IMG/VR virus record: IMGVR_UViG_3300037360_000021
Coordinates: 1 to 49,333 of that record
DNA length: 49,333 bases
Strand: one strand, 5' to 3'
DNA from: a virus
Numbering within the stretch: the stretch's first letter is position 1; every line of letters starts with the position of its first letter. A program made the position numbers and the translations under genes. This document shows, piece after piece, positions 2,555 through 49,333 of the stretch. The notes beneath the pieces were generated by a model. It did no database searches and was not told the DNA's origin. It saw only the letters and a list, made by a program, of their open reading frames with translations.

Positions 2555-3793
2555 CTACCAACCTACGTTGGCTTGGTTCCCTGTGTATGAATCTGGTTGC
2601 CCGTCACACGGAGCGTTCATGCGGGCCTTGGTGAAGTAAAGTTCCATCAAATTTCTATCCGCGATACGTGCTTGTCTCAACAAATCCTTATACTCTTCGT
2701 GATAGGCCTTTGCCAAAAACTGCCAGTTTGCGCCAGACCCGCGTTCCATATCGTCGCCTTTGGAACCTTCCTTCCAAAGACAGCACATTTCGTAAGTCCT
2801 TTGTCTTACCAATTCTTCACTTAAAGGATAAGCAATCGTGTCGTTCGGATTTACTAGCGGTGGTAAGTTGCATTGGCATTGGAATGTGTAGCTTAAAATC
2901 GAAATTGGGTGCGGCCATAATTCCACCAAAAGCTGACCATATGTTGCGCTTCCTGGCCTCGTATCAGTTCCATACGGAACTACGGCAGTTGGCTGATCGA
3001 ATATTTCGCGCTGGGCGTCTTCTACGGAGAGGTCGATCTGCGTCCAACTCCACCAGTCCATCTGCTCATTATTTTGCGTATCGCGAATATCCATCCATTT
3101 ACGGAATCCAACAGGACAAGGATAATAAGCCTGGTACACGCAATATTGTCCGTTCGTCTGTGCCGGTTCTACCCAGAGACGGTCGGTTGTTATTGTTGCA
3201 ATCAATGTAACAGAAAATGTAGCAGCCGTTCCGCCTTCAGAGAACGTCACATATGGCGTTGTATAGCCGCTCCCTGCCGTCAGAACGATGGGCGGTAGGG
3301 TAACCGTCCCATTGGCGTTCACAGTGACAGAGAGCGTGGCTCCTGCGCCTATGGATGGGTCAAGAACGGGTACCGTATACGTTCCTGGGGTTTGGCCTAA
3401 TCCTGGAGTCAAAACTGTAGCGTAAGCAACCGTGCCGTTATTTCCTACCCCGATGATGTTGTACAGGCTGTAGTAGGGAACGCGGATTTGCTGCTGCGTC
3501 AATAATGGCGGATACGGAACATTCGCAGTCCAAGCCGCTGTAGCGACAGCATCGGCTGTGATCGTGTTTGTGAATGGAACTACTGTAATTGTTCCGGGAC
3601 TCAAGAAATTCGTTCCGGCGTTCGGTCCACCTAGAAGTGAAGGGGTTAACCAGCCTCCAGTGACGTTCTGGAAACTCCAGACGTTTTCCATCTGTATCTT
3701 CGTGTATGCTTCGTTAATTCTGGTCGCGGCTAGTCCCCTATTCATGCCTGAAAAGGTTCCCAGCACATCTTGAATGATATTCTGAAACGCCAC
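2555..3793 (-). CDS. Virion structural protein, possible head-tail adaptor or tail tube protein
   Basis: A 412-residue protein starting at GTG with GGGAG about 9 nt upstream. The N-terminus (residues 1-50, GMNRGLAATRINEAYTKI) and the C-terminal half (aromatic-rich, then a Glu/Arg-rich helical tail) resemble phage adaptor or tail-tube-A type proteins. A Gly/Thr-rich insert around residues 120-200 contains GSGY...P.V.FSEGGTAATF, a motif shared with the two structural proteins encoded at 4934-5488 and 5547-6392. It ends with TAG. The adaptor assignment is tentative and rests on layout, length and general sequence character. Confidence 0.6.
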   Translation of the reverse strand: MAFQNIIQDVLGTFSGMNRGLAATRINEAYTKIQMENVWSFQNVTGGWLTPSLLGGPNAGTNFLSPGTITVVPFTNTITADAVATAAWTANVPYPPLLTQQQIRVPYYSLYNIIGVGNNGTVAYATVLTPGLGQTPGTYTVPVLDPSIGAGATLSVTVNANGTVTLPPIVLTAGSGYTTPYVTFSEGGTAATFSVTLIATITTDRLWVEPAQTNGQYCVYQAYYPCPVGFRKWMDIRDTQNNEQMDWWSWTQIDLSVEDAQREIFDQPTAVVPYGTDTRPGSATYGQLLVELWPHPISILSYTFQCQCNLPPLVNPNDTIAYPLSEELVRQRTYEMCCLWKEGSKGDDMERGSGANWQFLAKAYHEEYKDLLRQARIADRNLMELYFTKARMNAPCDGQPDSYTGNQANVGW

Positions 3794-17644: not shown

Positions 17645-19729
17645 TTACCACTCTCCCACTGAAAATGCGTTACTCATACAGCGACCCTTGTTTGGGTCTG
17701 ACTTCTTCCTACTCGGCTGTGCGTACCGTCTCTGTGACCGTGCCGATAAATCATCGTATGTGTGGCAGTTCAAATAGCTTTGCGCTGCGGCACGTATCCT
17801 ATCGTCATGCTTGTTTTGTTGGTGAATCATCTTGTCACGTCCACCATCATTCGATCTACGCTCAAGAGTTTTTAACTCCTCTATCAACCACTTCGACATA
17901 GGAACATACCAACCACCGTTAACAGCCTCAACAAACCTATCCATTAAAATAGGAACTGTTGTCCTATTCGAGTACCAACCTTCCCTATGCTTATTCTCAT
18001 CCTTTACCTTCTTTCCGTCAAGTCTTCCGGGGGTGTGGTGGTAGTTGAAACCCATAATTTTTAACTGGTTCTGACAAGTATCTCCCGGTCCTTCCACCTG
18101 CTCAATCGAAAACTTTACTCCTCTATAATGACCTGAAATCTGTCCGTACCACGACGCCATTGCCGCTAGGAATGGTACTGCCTGAGCGGGGCTAAAACGA
18201 TTAGCCGTAAGCTCTGCGCATTGCATATCCACACTTGATCCTGTAGATACCCTAGTCATAGACGCACAGAATCGGTCCTCATCCTCGTTTCCTAATCCAT
18301 GCGCTGTATCTACTCCGCAGCTATACGTTGCACCTTTTATCGGAGGCTCATATACTAGGAGTTTATCAAACGTATTTGCTTCCGTTTCCTCATCTATCGG
18401 AAGCAAAGGTACAAGTTCCCAATCATAACGCTCATCACGATTGTTTTTGTGTGTTAGATGAATTACTTCCTTATTAAAATCAATATCTGATTCTCTTGGC
18501 TCAAACTCCTCTAAAATAGAGTGTCCTGTGATTGCATAGACTTGGTATTGATTCCTGCGAACCTTTTCTCCTCCTGTCCTAACCTCATAAATATCGTCTT
18601 CCAACTCCATGATTGTCTCTAAGTCAAAGACACTATCATGGACTCCAGTAAGAGCCTCAAAGTCATCCGCTGGTAAACGTGCCGCGTGTTGCTGTAGAGA
18701 GTGTCTTTCACGCGCTTGGTCGTACTCTAACTCCCACCAATACTGCTGTTCAATAGGTACTCGATAATCTGCACCTACCACCTTTGCCAGATACGGAGTG
18801 TTACGGATGTAAGATTCACATCTAGTAATATGCGCTCTGGTAGCATCCATTCTTCTTTCGTAGAATCCTGGTGGTACAGGATGCGCTCGTATCCAGTCTG
18901 CTTGAGGATACATATCTGTTGCCAAAGGCCACGATATAAATACAGGACACATTCTTCCTGTTCCTGTCGCCATTTTTAATTTTTGTGACTTCCAGAAATC
19001 AGGAAACCATCCTACGTTTCCTGAACCAGTTCCCTCAAACACCATAAACAAGTTCTTATTCGCGTGCGTAGCAGGAAGCAGTCCTTCCTCAATTACGTTA
19101 TGAGGATTAGGGATGATACCAATCTCCGAGATCAAAATATTCTGCGGTGTTTGTCCTTGCGCGATACCCTTCGGTTGCATACCAGACTCAACCATAAGGC
19201 GCGATCCGTTGCTAAACTTTCTTTTTGAAGATATATTAGGAACTAGCCAAAACGGACACTTTTCGTAAGATGTATCGAATTTGATCTCAATTTCGGCTGA
19301 TTTCGATGCTTGTACTGATGCCATTACAGAAAGAGTGTTTGGAACGAAAAGCATTTTATGATTAAAATACAATGCTACGAGTGTCGTGATCCCGACCTGC
19401 CTGGCCTTCAAGCAGATAATCTGAATACCAGCCTGTTGTTCCTCTAAATCAGCAACAACCGAATCAAATACGTCTTGTGACTTACGATTTTGGAACTTTA
19501 CTATATTTCCACCCTCGTCTGTCACATAAGCATAATTGTCACGCCAGTAATGGTAGCTTAAACCACAGAGAACCTGCTCGTTTAGAATCCAACGACGTAT
19601 TTCTTCCCGTCTCTTTTGAGTTATAGAAGCAACAGATTCAATCCATGAACCCTTAGAGTTACTTCCTATTTTCGTTATGTTTTTTACGTATTCTGAAAAT
19701 TCCTGAACTTCTGGAAACGTGTGACGCAC
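17645..19729 (-). CDS. terL: Terminase large subunit (ATPase and nuclease)
   Basis: A 694-residue packaging motor that cuts concatemers and pumps DNA into the head. A Walker A variant of the terminase type is seen as KARQVGITT (near 105), Walker B as ILISEIG (near 190), and the RNase-H-like nuclease as GVDTAHG (near 470) with HDDRIRAAAQSYL near 650. The annotated start is GTG at 19729 without a ribosome site. The frame is open 23 codons further upstream to the TAG that ends the 81-aa gene, with no ATG, so the true start or an amber readthrough is unresolved. It ends next to the 78-aa gene. Confidence 0.9.
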   Translation of the reverse strand: MRHTFPEVQEFSEYVKNITKIGSNSKGSWIESVASITQKRREEIRRWILNEQVLCGLSYHYWRDNYAYVTDEGGNIVKFQNRKSQDVFDSVVADLEEQQAGIQIICLKARQVGITTLVALYFNHKMLFVPNTLSVMASVQASKSAEIEIKFDTSYEKCPFWLVPNISSKRKFSNGSRLMVESGMQPKGIAQGQTPQNILISEIGIIPNPHNVIEEGLLPATHANKNLFMVFEGTGSGNVGWFPDFWKSQKLKMATGTGRMCPVFISWPLATDMYPQADWIRAHPVPPGFYERRMDATRAHITRCESYIRNTPYLAKVVGADYRVPIEQQYWWELEYDQARERHSLQQHAARLPADDFEALTGVHDSVFDLETIMELEDDIYEVRTGGEKVRRNQYQVYAITGHSILEEFEPRESDIDFNKEVIHLTHKNNRDERYDWELVPLLPIDEETEANTFDKLLVYEPPIKGATYSCGVDTAHGLGNEDEDRFCASMTRVSTGSSVDMQCAELTANRFSPAQAVPFLAAMASWYGQISGHYRGVKFSIEQVEGPGDTCQNQLKIMGFNYHHTPGRLDGKKVKDENKHREGWYSNRTTVPILMDRFVEAVNGGWYVPMSKWLIEELKTLERRSNDGGRDKMIHQQNKHDDRIRAAAQSYLNCHTYDDLSARSQRRYAQPSRKKSDPNKGRCMSNAFSVGEW

Positions 19730-19798
19730 GAGTTCAATACCATTCTGTGATTCATAGAATGAGATATTTTGCTCGATAATCTTCTGGCTATAGATAGT

Positions 19799-20044
19799 CT
19801 ACCTCACCAAACTCCTAGTGCTTTTCGGCACCCACGACGGCAGCAACCCTAGTATCCGTCTCCCGTATGCGACCTCGTTATCGTCCAGACAGTCCTTCAA
19901 ATCATCAACCGAATCAAAGATTTGCCGGTTATCAAAAGAAATAAAATGAGCTTCCAAAGTATCGTAAAAAGCAAATTCCCGCGACCATTCAGGATCGTGC
20001 GGGTCTGTGGCTATCTGTTTTCCAAGGTCAATAAACCTAATCAA
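19799..20044 (-). CDS. Small acidic phage protein, unknown
   Basis: 81 residues. The phrase REFAFYDTLEAHFISFDNRQ and the acidic DSVDDLKDCLDD match a small family I have seen in phages and prophages, function unknown. It overlaps the upstream stop region and ends at TAG; the terminase frame continues directly behind this TAG in the same phase. Confidence 0.65.
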   Translation of the reverse strand: MIRFIDLGKQIATDPHDPEWSREFAFYDTLEAHFISFDNRQIFDSVDDLKDCLDDNEVAYGRRILGLLPSWVPKSTRSLVR

Positions 20045-31235: not shown

Positions 31236-31257
31236 TTCATATGCGGCCTCTTATAAC

Positions 31258-31443
31258 TCAAAATCTCGAAAGCGCATCATAATAAGATCGTCCATTATTT
31301 TCCTTAACCGCTCTTTGAAACGGGGTATTAGTATAGAAATTATCCGCAATCAAAGGCATAGCCTTACTCCACGCCGCGTTTATCTCCTTCCAAAGCAATA
31401 TCTTACGATAAGCGCGTGCTACTCCCGGTCGAAGTTTACGCAT
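31258..31443 (-). CDS. Small basic helical protein
   Basis: 61 residues, Lys/Arg-rich (RPGVARAYRKILLWKEINAA). It overlaps the upstream gene by 8 bp. No family is recognised. Confidence 0.55.
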   Translation of the reverse strand: MRKLRPGVARAYRKILLWKEINAAWSKAMPLIADNFYTNTPFQRAVKENNGRSYYDALSRF

Positions 31444-31732
31444 TCTTTTTCCTCACATAGAACCGAAGCGTAGTCAGATCGTACCCGCGCTCCTCTAGTT
31501 CTTTAATAAACGAGTTTCCGTACTTTGTCCACAGTATTCTCGGAGAACCCAAAGGCGCATCCCAATTCGTACTACAATCATTACCGCTTAGAGTATTATG
31601 CAAAAGATGGGAATCACATTTAGAAATTCCCGGACCCCAGTAGTAGCACAAATCAGGTTCGTTCCCATCAATACGCCCCCACTACGCTCGAAGCTCACCG
31701 TCTTTAATCTTTGGCTTGCGGTAGCGTTTCAT
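31436..31732 (-). CDS. Conserved small phage protein with an in-frame amber codon
   Basis: The start ATG 31732 has GGAGGG upstream and overlaps the stop of the previous gene (ATGA), so it is well supported. Sixteen codons later an in-frame TAG (31682-31684) interrupts the frame, which then continues for 81 codons: WGRIDGNEPDLCYYWGPGIS, then a Cys/His stretch, then ELEERGYDLTTLRFYVRKKN. The part after TAG matches a known phage pattern (PD..Y.WG.G..K.D..LL ... RGYD..TL.F...K), and it begins before the only later start (TTG 31651, no ribosome site). Readthrough, a suppressor tRNA, a real nonsense mutation or a sequencing error are possible. Confidence 0.55.
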
Positions 31733-31902
31733 GATTCCCTCCATGACCATCCCATACATAATCTATAAATCTTTCTAAATGGTTGCCATCCGTAGCACCA
31801 TTTCCGGCCTTCCACTTCCGAGTCACAACGGAAGCACAAAAACGGACTAGAATCGTCAACCGGATCATAAGCGCAACCAAACAATTTACAGGAAATTTTC
31901 AT
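31729..31902 (-). CDS. 57-residue Cys-rich mini-protein
   Basis: ATG 31902 follows GGAGAGGA. CKLFGCAY...CFRC matches the small zinc-ribbon type seen in prophages; Trp-rich end. Its TGA overlaps the next start (ATGA). Confidence 0.65.
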   Translation of the reverse strand: MKISCKLFGCAYDPVDDSSPFLCFRCDSEVEGRKWCYGWQPFRKIYRLCMGWSWRES

Positions 31903-31909
31903 TCCTCTC

Positions 31910-32590
31910 CTAGTCGAATACCCGTTCCCGCTCCATACGCCGTAACGTCTGCTCTGGAGTCTCCCCCGCAAGCATCTCATACCCACAGCCCACCGTACCG
32001 CCCTTCCACGATCCTGTACGCTCCCCTACCTCATCGTCAAAGGCTACGCTGATACTCTGGCGTACCTTCTCAAACAAACCCGTCCAAGTGAATCCTTTCG
32101 GCCTCCATGCCATCCGATCAACATAAACCGTAGCCGTCCGGTTCTGGACCTCACCGCTTTTTAACTTGTACGTGTACGGAAAAGAAAACTCTTCACGTCC
32201 ATCCGGCTCCTTGTCTTCCCAACACCCAACATAAGGAACCCACGACCCGTCCGCACACCGTACCTCATGCCGCTGGAAAACACTAGAGAACCAAGGCAAG
32301 TCCCAAATCTTTGTCGCCTCATTCCAGTGAAAGTGAATGCAACCGTCGCCAGACGAAAAACCCCACTGCTGCCATTCGCGCATCCAATGCTCACGCTTAG
32401 ACGGTGGAACATACTGAAGCGGAAAATACAGAAAGATATTTAGCAACAGAAAATGAACGTGAAGCATCCACGGCCATTTATCCTCATCGTTTCCGGTATA
32501 GATTACGTCGAATGCGACACCCCACCGATTCCAGTAAACCTCGAAAATTCCAGGGGCGCGAAATCCGCGATCCTCTTTAATGATGTGCAT
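31910..32590 (-). CDS. Conserved phage protein, function unknown
   Basis: 226 residues from ATG 32590 with GGGAG upstream. The sequence has conserved-looking phrases GFSSGDGCIHFHW, a Trp-rich middle, YTYKLKSGEVQNRTATVYVD and VGERTGSWKGGTVGCGYEML followed by GETPEQTLRRME. I know this pattern from other phages, but it has no assigned role; a beta-rich fold is likely. Confidence 0.65.
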   Translation of the reverse strand: MHIIKEDRGFRAPGIFEVYWNRWGVAFDVIYTGNDEDKWPWMLHVHFLLLNIFLYFPLQYVPPSKREHWMREWQQWGFSSGDGCIHFHWNEATKIWDLPWFSSVFQRHEVRCADGSWVPYVGCWEDKEPDGREEFSFPYTYKLKSGEVQNRTATVYVDRMAWRPKGFTWTGLFEKVRQSISVAFDDEVGERTGSWKGGTVGCGYEMLAGETPEQTLRRMERERVFD

Positions 32591-32660
32591 ATTATCTCTC
32601 CCGATGATTCTTTTCCTACCCGCTACTAGATTACCCGTCAATTTCGGGTCGCCTTAATTC

Positions 32661-32873
32661 CTAACGAATCAGATTCCGATTAGCCGCCAACGACTTTTTC
32701 TTCGCCACTGGAATCTTCTGCTCCAGCAACCTCGCCACAGCCTCCACCAACAACGGAATGTAAACCTCATTACCGCATAGCGACCGCATCGGACTCCGCA
32801 ACTCCGAAACCAATTCCGCGTTCGTCCAGCCTCGGATTATTTTCTGCTTGCCTAGTATTTCATCCCGGTCCAT
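32661..32873 (-). CDS. Small helical protein
   Basis: 70 residues, helical with a basic C-terminus (KKKSLAANRNLIR). The pattern WTNAELVSELRSPMRSLCGN and PLLVEAVARLLEQ is a two-helix unit. Function unknown. Confidence 0.55.
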   Translation of the reverse strand: MDRDEILGKQKIIRGWTNAELVSELRSPMRSLCGNEVYIPLLVEAVARLLEQKIPVAKKKSLAANRNLIR

Positions 32874-32897
32874 TTAACACCCCATCATTATGGCACG

Positions 32898-33212
32898 TCA
32901 TCCCAAAATCGTAATCATCTCTGTCACGTCACCGCTTCCATTCCTTACCGTCAGATTCAGAGGCGCTAGATTACGTTTTGGCTTAATCACCTGCCATACC
33001 GCATCCATATGTTTACTTTCCCCGCGCTCGTCCCTGAAATCGGCAAAGCTGGTGCAATACTCCTCGCCCTCATCATCCGAATTACGACACAAAAAATCCG
33101 CAGCCATTGGCAATTTATGCTCTTTGCAAATCTCAATGATCTTAGCCATGAGAGGCGCAATCTGCTCATCATACACCTGTTCTAAATCAAAACTCTCCAT
33201 TTTCTCGCTCAT
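32898..33212 (-). CDS. Small unknown protein
   Basis: 104 residues from the second of two overlapping ATGs (GGGGAG 6 nt upstream). Helical N-terminus (LEQVYDEQIAPLMAKIIEIC) and a beta-type end. It is coupled to the ribbon-helix-helix gene (TAATG). Confidence 0.6.
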   Translation of the reverse strand: MSEKMESFDLEQVYDEQIAPLMAKIIEICKEHKLPMAADFLCRNSDDEGEEYCTSFADFRDERGESKHMDAVWQVIKPKRNLAPLNLTVRNGSGDVTEMITILG

Positions 33213-33214
33213 CA

Positions 33215-33577
33215 TTATCTCCCCTTACACCCTTTTTGATGAAGACCATTTAACCCGCCACACAACAGGCACCCACCGCCCCGATCTGGCTCCTCACCCG
33301 TCGCCACGCGATTACCCCCGCCACTCCCGCCAACCCTACCTGACGACGCATAAGCCACCGGCCTCACCACAGGCTCCTCAATATCCAGAACCCCCACGCC
33401 GCCAGACTCAGCCGATTTTTGCACCGCCATACATCCACCATCCTTTTTATCTGCCCATTCTTGAAGAACACCCACCAATATATACGCACGGCTCCGATCT
33501 TTAATCTTTGCGACCTCATCCGCCGCAATTACGATCTCCTCTGGAACCCTAATCGAAATATGCTTTGTAATACCCAT
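33215..33577 (-). CDS. Ribbon-helix-helix regulator with a Gly-rich, Cys tail
   Basis: 120 residues from ATG 33577. The N-terminus KHISIRVPEEIVIAADEVAK then DRSRAYILVGVLQEW is a CopG/Arc-type RHH DNA-binding domain. A Gly-rich linker leads to CLLCGGLNGLHQKGC, a likely zinc site. It is the first gene of the leftward region and directly follows its own promoter, so it probably controls that region. The mRNA appears leaderless (see 33584-33613). Confidence 0.85.
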   Translation of the reverse strand: MGITKHISIRVPEEIVIAADEVAKIKDRSRAYILVGVLQEWADKKDGGCMAVQKSAESGGVGVLDIEEPVVRPVAYASSGRVGGSGGGNRVATGEEPDRGGGCLLCGGLNGLHQKGCKGR

Positions 33578-35170: not shown

Positions 35171-36205
35171 ATGAGCGTATCGCCAAAACAATTGACCGCG
35201 TTACTCGCAGCCATGATTCCTGCCCGCTTGCCGTTACTAATTACAGGCGCGCCGGGAGTTGGCAAGTCTGACATTATCTCTCAAGCGGCAGCAAGCGCTG
35301 GAGCAGACCTGCTTATCTCACATCCTGCCGTAGCGGACCCGACAGATGCTAAAGGGTTACCATGGCCAAAAGCCGATGGAAACACCGCCACTTTCCTGCC
35401 TTTTGGTGAACTGGCAACGGCAATAAATGCCGTTCGTCCTACAGTTTGGCTGCTAGACGATCTAGGGCAGGCCACTCCTGCCGTACAAGCTAGCTTTATG
35501 CAGTTAATCCTTGCGCGACGGGTAAACGGTCACATCTTGCCGGATTGCATTACCTTTGTTGCCGCGACGAATCGGCGCAGTGACCGTGCCGGAGTATCAG
35601 GGATTTTAGAGCCGGTAAAATCACGGTTTGCGTGCATTGTTGATCTTGAAGCCAATATCGATGACTGGAGTACATGGGCATACGCTCACAGCGTATCGCC
35701 TATGCTGATAGCATTTTTGCGCTTTCGTCCTGAATTGCTTTGCAATTTTCAGGCTACGGCAGACCTTACAAACTCGCCAGTTCCGCGCACGTGGTCTCAC
35801 GTTGCCAAACTCGAAGCGCTGAATTTGCCCGCTGAAATTGAATCGGCTGCATTTTCGGGAGCGGTCGGCGAAGGTGCTGCTCTTGAGTACCTGTCTTTCA
35901 GGTCCATGTATCGGTCCCTTATCAATCTTGACGCGATTCTCTTGAATCCTGATACTGCCGCTATTCCTAGCAAGCCTAGTGAATTGTATGCTGTATCGGT
36001 TGGACTCGCAGCCCGCGCAAACGATAACAATTTTGCACGTATCGCAACCTACGCCACCCGGCTTTACACTGAAGCGGATCATGGCGAGTTTGCCGTATTG
36101 CTAGTCCGTGACGCGATTAGACGCGATGAAAAGATTCAATATACCGATTCTTTCGTTCGTTTGAATTCCGGTCCCATCGGCCAATTGATAAGCGGCAGAG
36201 AGTAA
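35171..36205 (+). CDS. MoxR-type AAA ATPase
   Basis: 344 residues. Walker A is GAPGVGKSD (near 25), Walker B is VWLLDDLG (near 95), and AATN (near 138) is a sensor-1 motif; a helical C-terminal part follows. MoxR ATPases act as chaperones that load or activate VWA-domain partners, and a VWA/metallopeptidase protein is encoded at 37933-39081. AGGAG lies 9 nt before the ATG. It opens the rightward operon; the cellular target is unknown. Confidence 0.85.
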   Translation: MSVSPKQLTALLAAMIPARLPLLITGAPGVGKSDIISQAAASAGADLLISHPAVADPTDAKGLPWPKADGNTATFLPFGELATAINAVRPTVWLLDDLGQATPAVQASFMQLILARRVNGHILPDCITFVAATNRRSDRAGVSGILEPVKSRFACIVDLEANIDDWSTWAYAHSVSPMLIAFLRFRPELLCNFQATADLTNSPVPRTWSHVAKLEALNLPAEIESAAFSGAVGEGAALEYLSFRSMYRSLINLDAILLNPDTAAIPSKPSELYAVSVGLAARANDNNFARIATYATRLYTEADHGEFAVLLVRDAIRRDEKIQYTDSFVRLNSGPIGQLISGRE

Positions 36206-45958: not shown

Positions 45959-46267
45959 ATGTGCAAATTTGCTAGCTTTGTTCTGACAAAGGACCGTGAG
46001 TTTTGGTCTGAAACTGGAGATTCCCATAATGATATTATCCGAGAAAACAATCTCACTGAGTTGAAAGCAGATGCGGCTGATTACATCGATGCCAGCGGTT
46101 GCACGGCTCTCACTGAGTTGAAAGCAGATGCGGCTGATTACATCGATGCCAGCGGTTGCACGGCTCTCACTGAGTTGAAAGCAGATGCGGCTGATTACAT
46201 CGATGCCAGCGGTTGCAATCCAAACCTGAAAATCAAATCCCGCAGAGGAGCAACGATTTATCGTTGA
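45959..46267 (+). CDS. Repeat protein with three identical 19-residue units
   Basis: 102 residues. The N-terminus (MCKFASFVLTKDREFWSETG then DSHNDIIREN) matches a small phage family; then LTELKADAADYIDASGCTA occurs three times (last unit ends GCNPN), a leucine-rich-like repeat. The three DNA units of 57 bp at 46052-46216 are identical. A binding role such as host-protein or surface interaction is inferred from the repeat type. Confidence 0.75.
   Translation: MCKFASFVLTKDREFWSETGDSHNDIIRENNLTELKADAADYIDASGCTALTELKADAADYIDASGCTALTELKADAADYIDASGCNPNLKIKSRRGATIYR
46052..46216 (+). repeat. Three perfect 57-bp direct repeats
   Basis: Units 46052-46108, 46109-46165 and 46166-46216 (last one shorter), encoding the repeats of the 102-aa protein. 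No silent differences are seen, so expansion was recent. Confidence 0.9.
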
Positions 46268-48827: not shown

Positions 48828-49333
48828 TGAAAGAAATTATCGTTTCATCTCAGGTTGATTTTGATGCTCTACCGAATAGTTTTGATGAGTATACTCGAAT
48901 TCTCATCAAAAACACCACGAGTAAACTCGTGGTGAAAATCTCGCGGGAGAACTCATCTGTCGAGGCGTGGGAGAACTCATCTGTCGTGGCGCGGGGGAAC
49001 TCATCTGTCGTGGCGCGGGAGAACTCATCTGTCGTGGCGCGGGAGAACTCATCTGTCGAGGCGTGGGAGAACTCATCTGTCGTGGCGCGGGAGAACTCAT
49101 CTGTCGTGGCGTGGGGGAACTCATCTGTCGTGGCGTGGGAGAACTCATCTGTCGTGGCGCGGGAGAACTCATCTGTCGTGGCGCGGGAGAACTCATCTGT
49201 CGAGGCGTGGGAGAACTCATCTGTCGTGGCGCGGGGGAACTCATCTGTCGAGGCGTGGGAGAACTCATCTGTCGAGGCGTGGGAGAACTCATCTGTCGTG
49301 GCGCGGGGGAACTCATCTGTCGTGGCGCGGGAG
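48827..49333 (+). CDS. Tandem octapeptide-repeat protein, runs off the window
   Basis: 169 codons are visible, without a stop, so the C-terminus is missing. Residues 1-40 are unique (MKEIIVSSQVDFDALPNSFD...). From about residue 41 the protein is a chain of 8-residue units (E/G)NSSV(V/E)A(R/W), about 16 in the window. Such short regular repeats usually form a beta-solenoid. It starts at ATG 48827 inside the previous stop (TGATG). A minus-strand frame over the repeat is only its shadow. A surface or fibre function is inferred. Confidence 0.8.
   Translation, partial: MKEIIVSSQVDFDALPNSFDEYTRILIKNTTSKLVVKISRENSSVEAWENSSVVARGNSSVVARENSSVVARENSSVEAWENSSVVARENSSVVAWGNSSVVAWENSSVVARENSSVVARENSSVEAWENSSVVARGNSSVEAWENSSVEAWENSSVVARGNSSVVARE
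48913..48934 (+). other. Perfect 9-bp hairpin at the repeat-domain border
   Basis: CACCACGAG, TAAA loop, CTCGTGGTG, inside the coding sequence just before the first repeat unit, flanked by A runs. Confidence 0.5.
48947..49333 (+). repeat. About sixteen 24-bp tandem repeats
   Basis: Units of 24 bp (consensus GAGAACTCATCTGTCGTGG then CGCGG) differ at only three positions (gag/ggg, gag/gtg, gcg/gtg in the last codons). They encode the octapeptide units and continue past the edge. Confidence 0.95.

Follow-up and report, generated by a model that had tools for sequence, protein, structure and literature searches.

An in-frame amber codon in a translationally coupled, conserved small gene of an uncultured tailed phage

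The window analyzed here is a 49,333-base IMG/VR phage sequence (IMGVR_UViG_3300037360_000021) from an uncultured tailed phage, taken at its full length. The focal gene is a small minus-strand gene with an in-frame TAG near its start, and the features around it are as follows.

31237..33279 (no strand): variable block that includes the focal gene and the Acb3-like gene; in sister phage G022 its place is taken by about 0.4 kb carrying another small gene
31258..31443 (-): downstream gene of 61 aa with its own GAGG; its start overlaps the end of the focal gene
31436..31732 (-): focal gene, a frame of 98 codons from a conserved family of small phage proteins, broken at codon 17 (from translation and homology)
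31649..31651 (-): TTG at codon 28, the first standard in-frame start past the TAG, without a good ribosome site
31682..31684 (-): in-frame TAG at codon 17, context GCG TAG TGG (from the sequence; same triplet in IMGVR_UViG_3300050021_000111)
31729..31902 (-): upstream gene of 57 aa, with an ATGA overlap with the focal start (from the sequence)
31737..31742 (-): GGAGGG, Shine-Dalgarno-like, 5' of ATG 31732 (from the sequence)
31910..32641 (-): neighbor matching Pfam Acb3 (CBASS inhibitor; PF25187), E=1.1e-51

Translation of 31436-31732 (-) gives MKRYRKPKIKDGELRA, the stop, and then WGRIDG...YVRKKNA before the final stop; counted from ATG 31732, the frame consists of 16 codons, the TAG, 81 sense codons and a TAA. 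An earlier note, made from the letters alone, had assigned this start on the strength of the GGAGGG, which is spaced four bases from the ATG, and the ATGA overlap, and had placed the TAG at codon 17 with 81 open codons after it; the sequence and its translation bear out both statements. The post-TAG stretch contains neither a second stop nor a frameshift and keeps the conserved residues of the family. Its codon-usage score is 0.11 in frame, compared with -0.02 and -0.04 in the other two frames, and lies in the normal range (17th percentile among gene windows).

Homology matches found with tblastn span the TAG, the best example being a Tunturiibacter phage protein (55% identity over residues 2-94, E=1e-27), so the open frame after the TAG exceeds what chance would give. 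The tblastn relatives come from phages of Tunturiibacter, Myxococcus, Vibrio and Nitrincola and from an EBPR podovirus, and an alignment search found 40 further IMG/VR relatives. None of these 40 has an internal stop within its match, with some of them being remote and matching the C-terminal part only. Full-length members share an N-terminal K-R-x-R-x-P-K..G-x-L-x-x-W-G pattern that runs across codon 17, in addition to a C-terminal RGYDLTTLRF. As the conserved N-terminus spans codon 17, any start past the TAG would differ from the family's own; the relatives begin upstream of codon 17 rather than after it, in agreement with the earlier claim that the coding pattern begins before the TAG.

The alignment of relatives at codon 17, which had been proposed as a check, returned sense codons and never a TAG. 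Seven distinct relatives from phage records have a sense codon there, and among 27 aligned relatives the column reads Y 11, Q 6, R 4, I 4, S 1 and K 1, that is, mostly Tyr (TAT/TAC) or Gln (CAG/CAA). Over half of these codons (15/27; TAT, TAC and CAG are the commonest) are a single base change away from TAG. With the stop kept in no relative examined, the TAG is, on this alignment, derived relative to the family. Two individual homologs are informative for comparison. The Tunturiibacter phage Tunturi_5 protein (PP885688.1, gp164) has the same start region as well as the 55% identity over residues 2-94, and carries Ala where the window has its TAG. The orf49 region of Nitrincola phage 1M3-16 (KJ534580.1) belongs to the same family and, as the only other interrupted member encountered, is likewise broken by an in-frame stop; however, this stop is a TAA elsewhere in the gene, which indicates an independent event and hence that loss is tolerated by the family.

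The focal family had no match above threshold in Pfam, NCBIfam, PADLOC or PHROG, and a structure search with the focal model found no resembling solved or viral model. The model itself came from AlphaFold2, run on an alignment of the family; Gln stood in for the TAG for modelling only. The predicted fold is confident (pLDDT 91.6), with residues 13-19, 27-32 and 90-94 forming strands and residues 38-49 a helix, which places codon 17 inside the first strand. According to this model, the 16-residue product would be unable to fold, and restart at either codon 21 or codon 28 would yield products without the first strand.

A separate assembly bears on whether the stop is genuine. IMGVR_UViG_3300050021_000111 is identical to the window at 297/297 bases of the focal gene, TAG included. 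Across the 28.6 kb over which the two align there are 41 differences, and all except one of these fall in two tight clusters; by this measure they are nearly one strain assembled twice, so that the second copy is uninformative on selection after the TAG. One cluster (35518-35683) holds 27 differences within 166 bases, mostly at one codon position; with the remaining 28 kb almost identical, it is a putative recombination tract or chimera. The identical gene makes a base error unlikely. A sequencing or assembly mistake at 31682-31684, which the earlier note had listed as an option, is thus contradicted by the same 297 bases in an independent assembly, and we regard it as extremely improbable.

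We also examined whether TAG is decoded throughout this phage. TAG ends 22 of the 80 ORF calls in the window (these calls are mechanical and include some non-genes) and is therefore not depleted as a terminator, while 21-24% of the relatives' long ORFs end in it. When G022 (~90% identical) and the window were compared in both directions, the core genes showed no clear internal stop, and the stop-containing matches were mainly antisense frames or shifts of ends or starts. General recoding of TAG was rejected on its use as a stop and on the lack of other clear in-frame cases, which upholds the earlier view that other genes in the window use TAG as a genuine stop. TAG-recoded phages (code 15; e.g., crAss-like phages, PMC9523058, PMC7886860) likewise have in-frame TAG within phage genes; the window differs from them in having one such codon only, in the frequency with which TAG ends its ORF calls and in that no CUA tRNA was found. 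Judged from sequence comparison, the TAG is real and does not reflect general recoding.

Two other candidates for stop readthrough were considered and rejected. The frame of 2555-3793 runs into 2156-2542, but the latter comes with a TAGGAGG site and an ATG of its own. Similarly, the 81-aa gene at 19799-20044, which ends in TAG, is in frame with the terminase, which has no ATG, GTG or TTG there. Here the TAG is a true gene end, because in sister phages the terminase begins at the codon aligned with ATC, and the 81-aa gene has an end apart from it (a TGA in L063 and L064).

The terminase start is an observation in its own right. In the large subunit gene (17645 to about 19795, -), there is no ATG, GTG or TTG upstream of GTG 19729, and homology continues upstream as far as an ATC that has GAGGT before it (region 19729-19801, -). 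At exactly this position, sister phages have ATC (L062-L065, L079), ATG, GTG or TTG, and a clear ribosome site accompanies several of these codons. An AUC start for an essential gene seems to be conserved across several lineages, and we consider it a better lead than the focal amber codon. In addition, the terminase genes of three relatives are overlong by about 0.7 kb or more (L075:1501-4361, L076:1501-4431, L119:5697-9731), suggesting a possible intron or intein.

Since a suppressor tRNA had been put forward as one explanation, with a search for the anticodon CUA as the check, tRNA genes were sought in 67 kb of this phage (perhaps half its genome lies outside), and none were found in the window, in the 18 kb by which G002 extends it, or in G022. 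The rest of the genome could hold one. More distant terminase relatives of 122-136 kb carry large arrays of 26-36 tRNA genes; if this phage has such an array, it would fall outside the sequenced portion. Across the whole or partial arrays of 18 relatives, no tRNA found has the anticodon CUA; UCA occurs in three cases and UUA in one doubtful ARAGORN call. The latter, a "suppressor" tRNA in G010, was discounted, as its anticodon stem is poor and a sister phage has Lys(UUU) there. The UCA (opal-decoding) tRNAs lie in large arrays of phages related via terminase or a tRNA-region gene (L112:7423-7493, L114:8880-8953, L150:8504-8577), and a tmRNA gene (tag AEDNALPMAA) was seen inside the tRNA array of two relatives (L147:3027-3442, L148:6624-7036). 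Searching for the remaining genome from both contig ends returned G022 only, and a tRNA-region protein used as query found no contig in the samples that yielded this strain. The window ends in a 24-base tandem repeat of 16 copies (48942-49333), and G022 breaks at the same repeat.

Considering these results, the locus is probably explained by a recent single-base nonsense mutation that inactivated a small, dispensable accessory gene. Ribosomes would initiate at ATG 31732 and terminate at the TAG after 16 residues, and the 98-residue protein would be absent or present only at trace level from ordinary misreading. A conserved frame is interrupted by a stop that relatives do not have, as expected of a nonsense allele. 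A check for decay after the stop found no further lesion, the only other copy being the identical one from nearly the same strain. The intact frame fits a very young mutation, in which it is expected, and equally fits a gene under continuing selection. Alternatively, the TAG could be read through, by a phage or host suppressor tRNA or by inefficient termination, giving full-length protein at a reduced or regulated level. The open frame with its retained family residues, the large tRNA arrays of the 122-136 kb relatives (some tRNAs with UCA, one called as UUA) and the fact that any array of this phage would sit in its unsequenced part are in line with readthrough, but its main signature when programmed, a stop conserved among relatives, is missing. 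With TAG freely used as a terminator, no tRNA in the window or its 18 kb extension, no CUA among the tRNAs found at the corresponding location in 18 relatives and the sole UUA call having a poor stem in the place of Lys(UUU), we consider readthrough unlikely. Its most specific form is very unlikely: here, with no general recoding, an amber-decoding tRNA in an unsampled large array would make expression of the focal gene, a neighbor of an anti-CBASS gene, tRNA-dependent and hence tied to the infection stage.

Ribosomes might instead restart after a 16-codon leader at a non-ATG codon (ATT at codon 21, after GTGGGGGCGT, or TTG at codon 28), yielding a functional N-truncated protein. The TAG is close to the gene start, where reinitiation is easiest; published work in eukaryotic cells documents that translation can resume at non-canonical codons once an early stop has ended it (PMC4648390), and the terminase of the same phage apparently starts at ATC, pointing to non-standard starts in use. 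Against this, the products would miss strand 13-19 wholly or mostly, full-length relatives retain the N-terminal KRxRxPK...GxLxxxWG, and the TTG has no strong ribosome site upstream, so that restart appears rather improbable. Among the four options of the earlier note, a pseudogene is accordingly the best supported, and readthrough loses ground for want of a conserved stop. Weighing against the nonsense-pseudogene reading is the general argument of Belinky et al (2021; PMC7918605) that bacterial genes with an in-frame stop are frequently no pseudogenes. The same study describes such stops as common and usually short-lived, and finds phages and transposons, as a COG category, over-represented among stop-interrupted genes. 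The focal gene resembles these interrupted genes in having one in-frame stop, being otherwise intact, and in that the stop position is unconserved in distant relatives.

The genomic context agrees with loss of an accessory gene. The block at 31237-33279 is absent from G022 despite ~90% identity, as would be expected of an accessory, dispensable gene, and no match to the gene was found in 20 relatives picked by TerL or Acb3, many of which are fragmentary. This placement beside an Acb3-like gene suggests a dispensable gene with an accessory, perhaps host-range or counter-defense, function. We infer a recent origin for the mutation and a protein that the phage can do without under current conditions. 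If this is a plain nonsense allele, the consequence is small: the phage is losing an accessory gene located in a variable block, and gene callers would wrongly place a 71-aa start at TTG 31651. Readthrough, by contrast, would make it a rare instance of an amber codon switching a single gene in a phage where TAG otherwise remains a stop. Elsewhere in the window, a perfect 57-base tandem repeat within an ORF (46051-46217) encodes LTELKADAADYIDASGCTA repeats.
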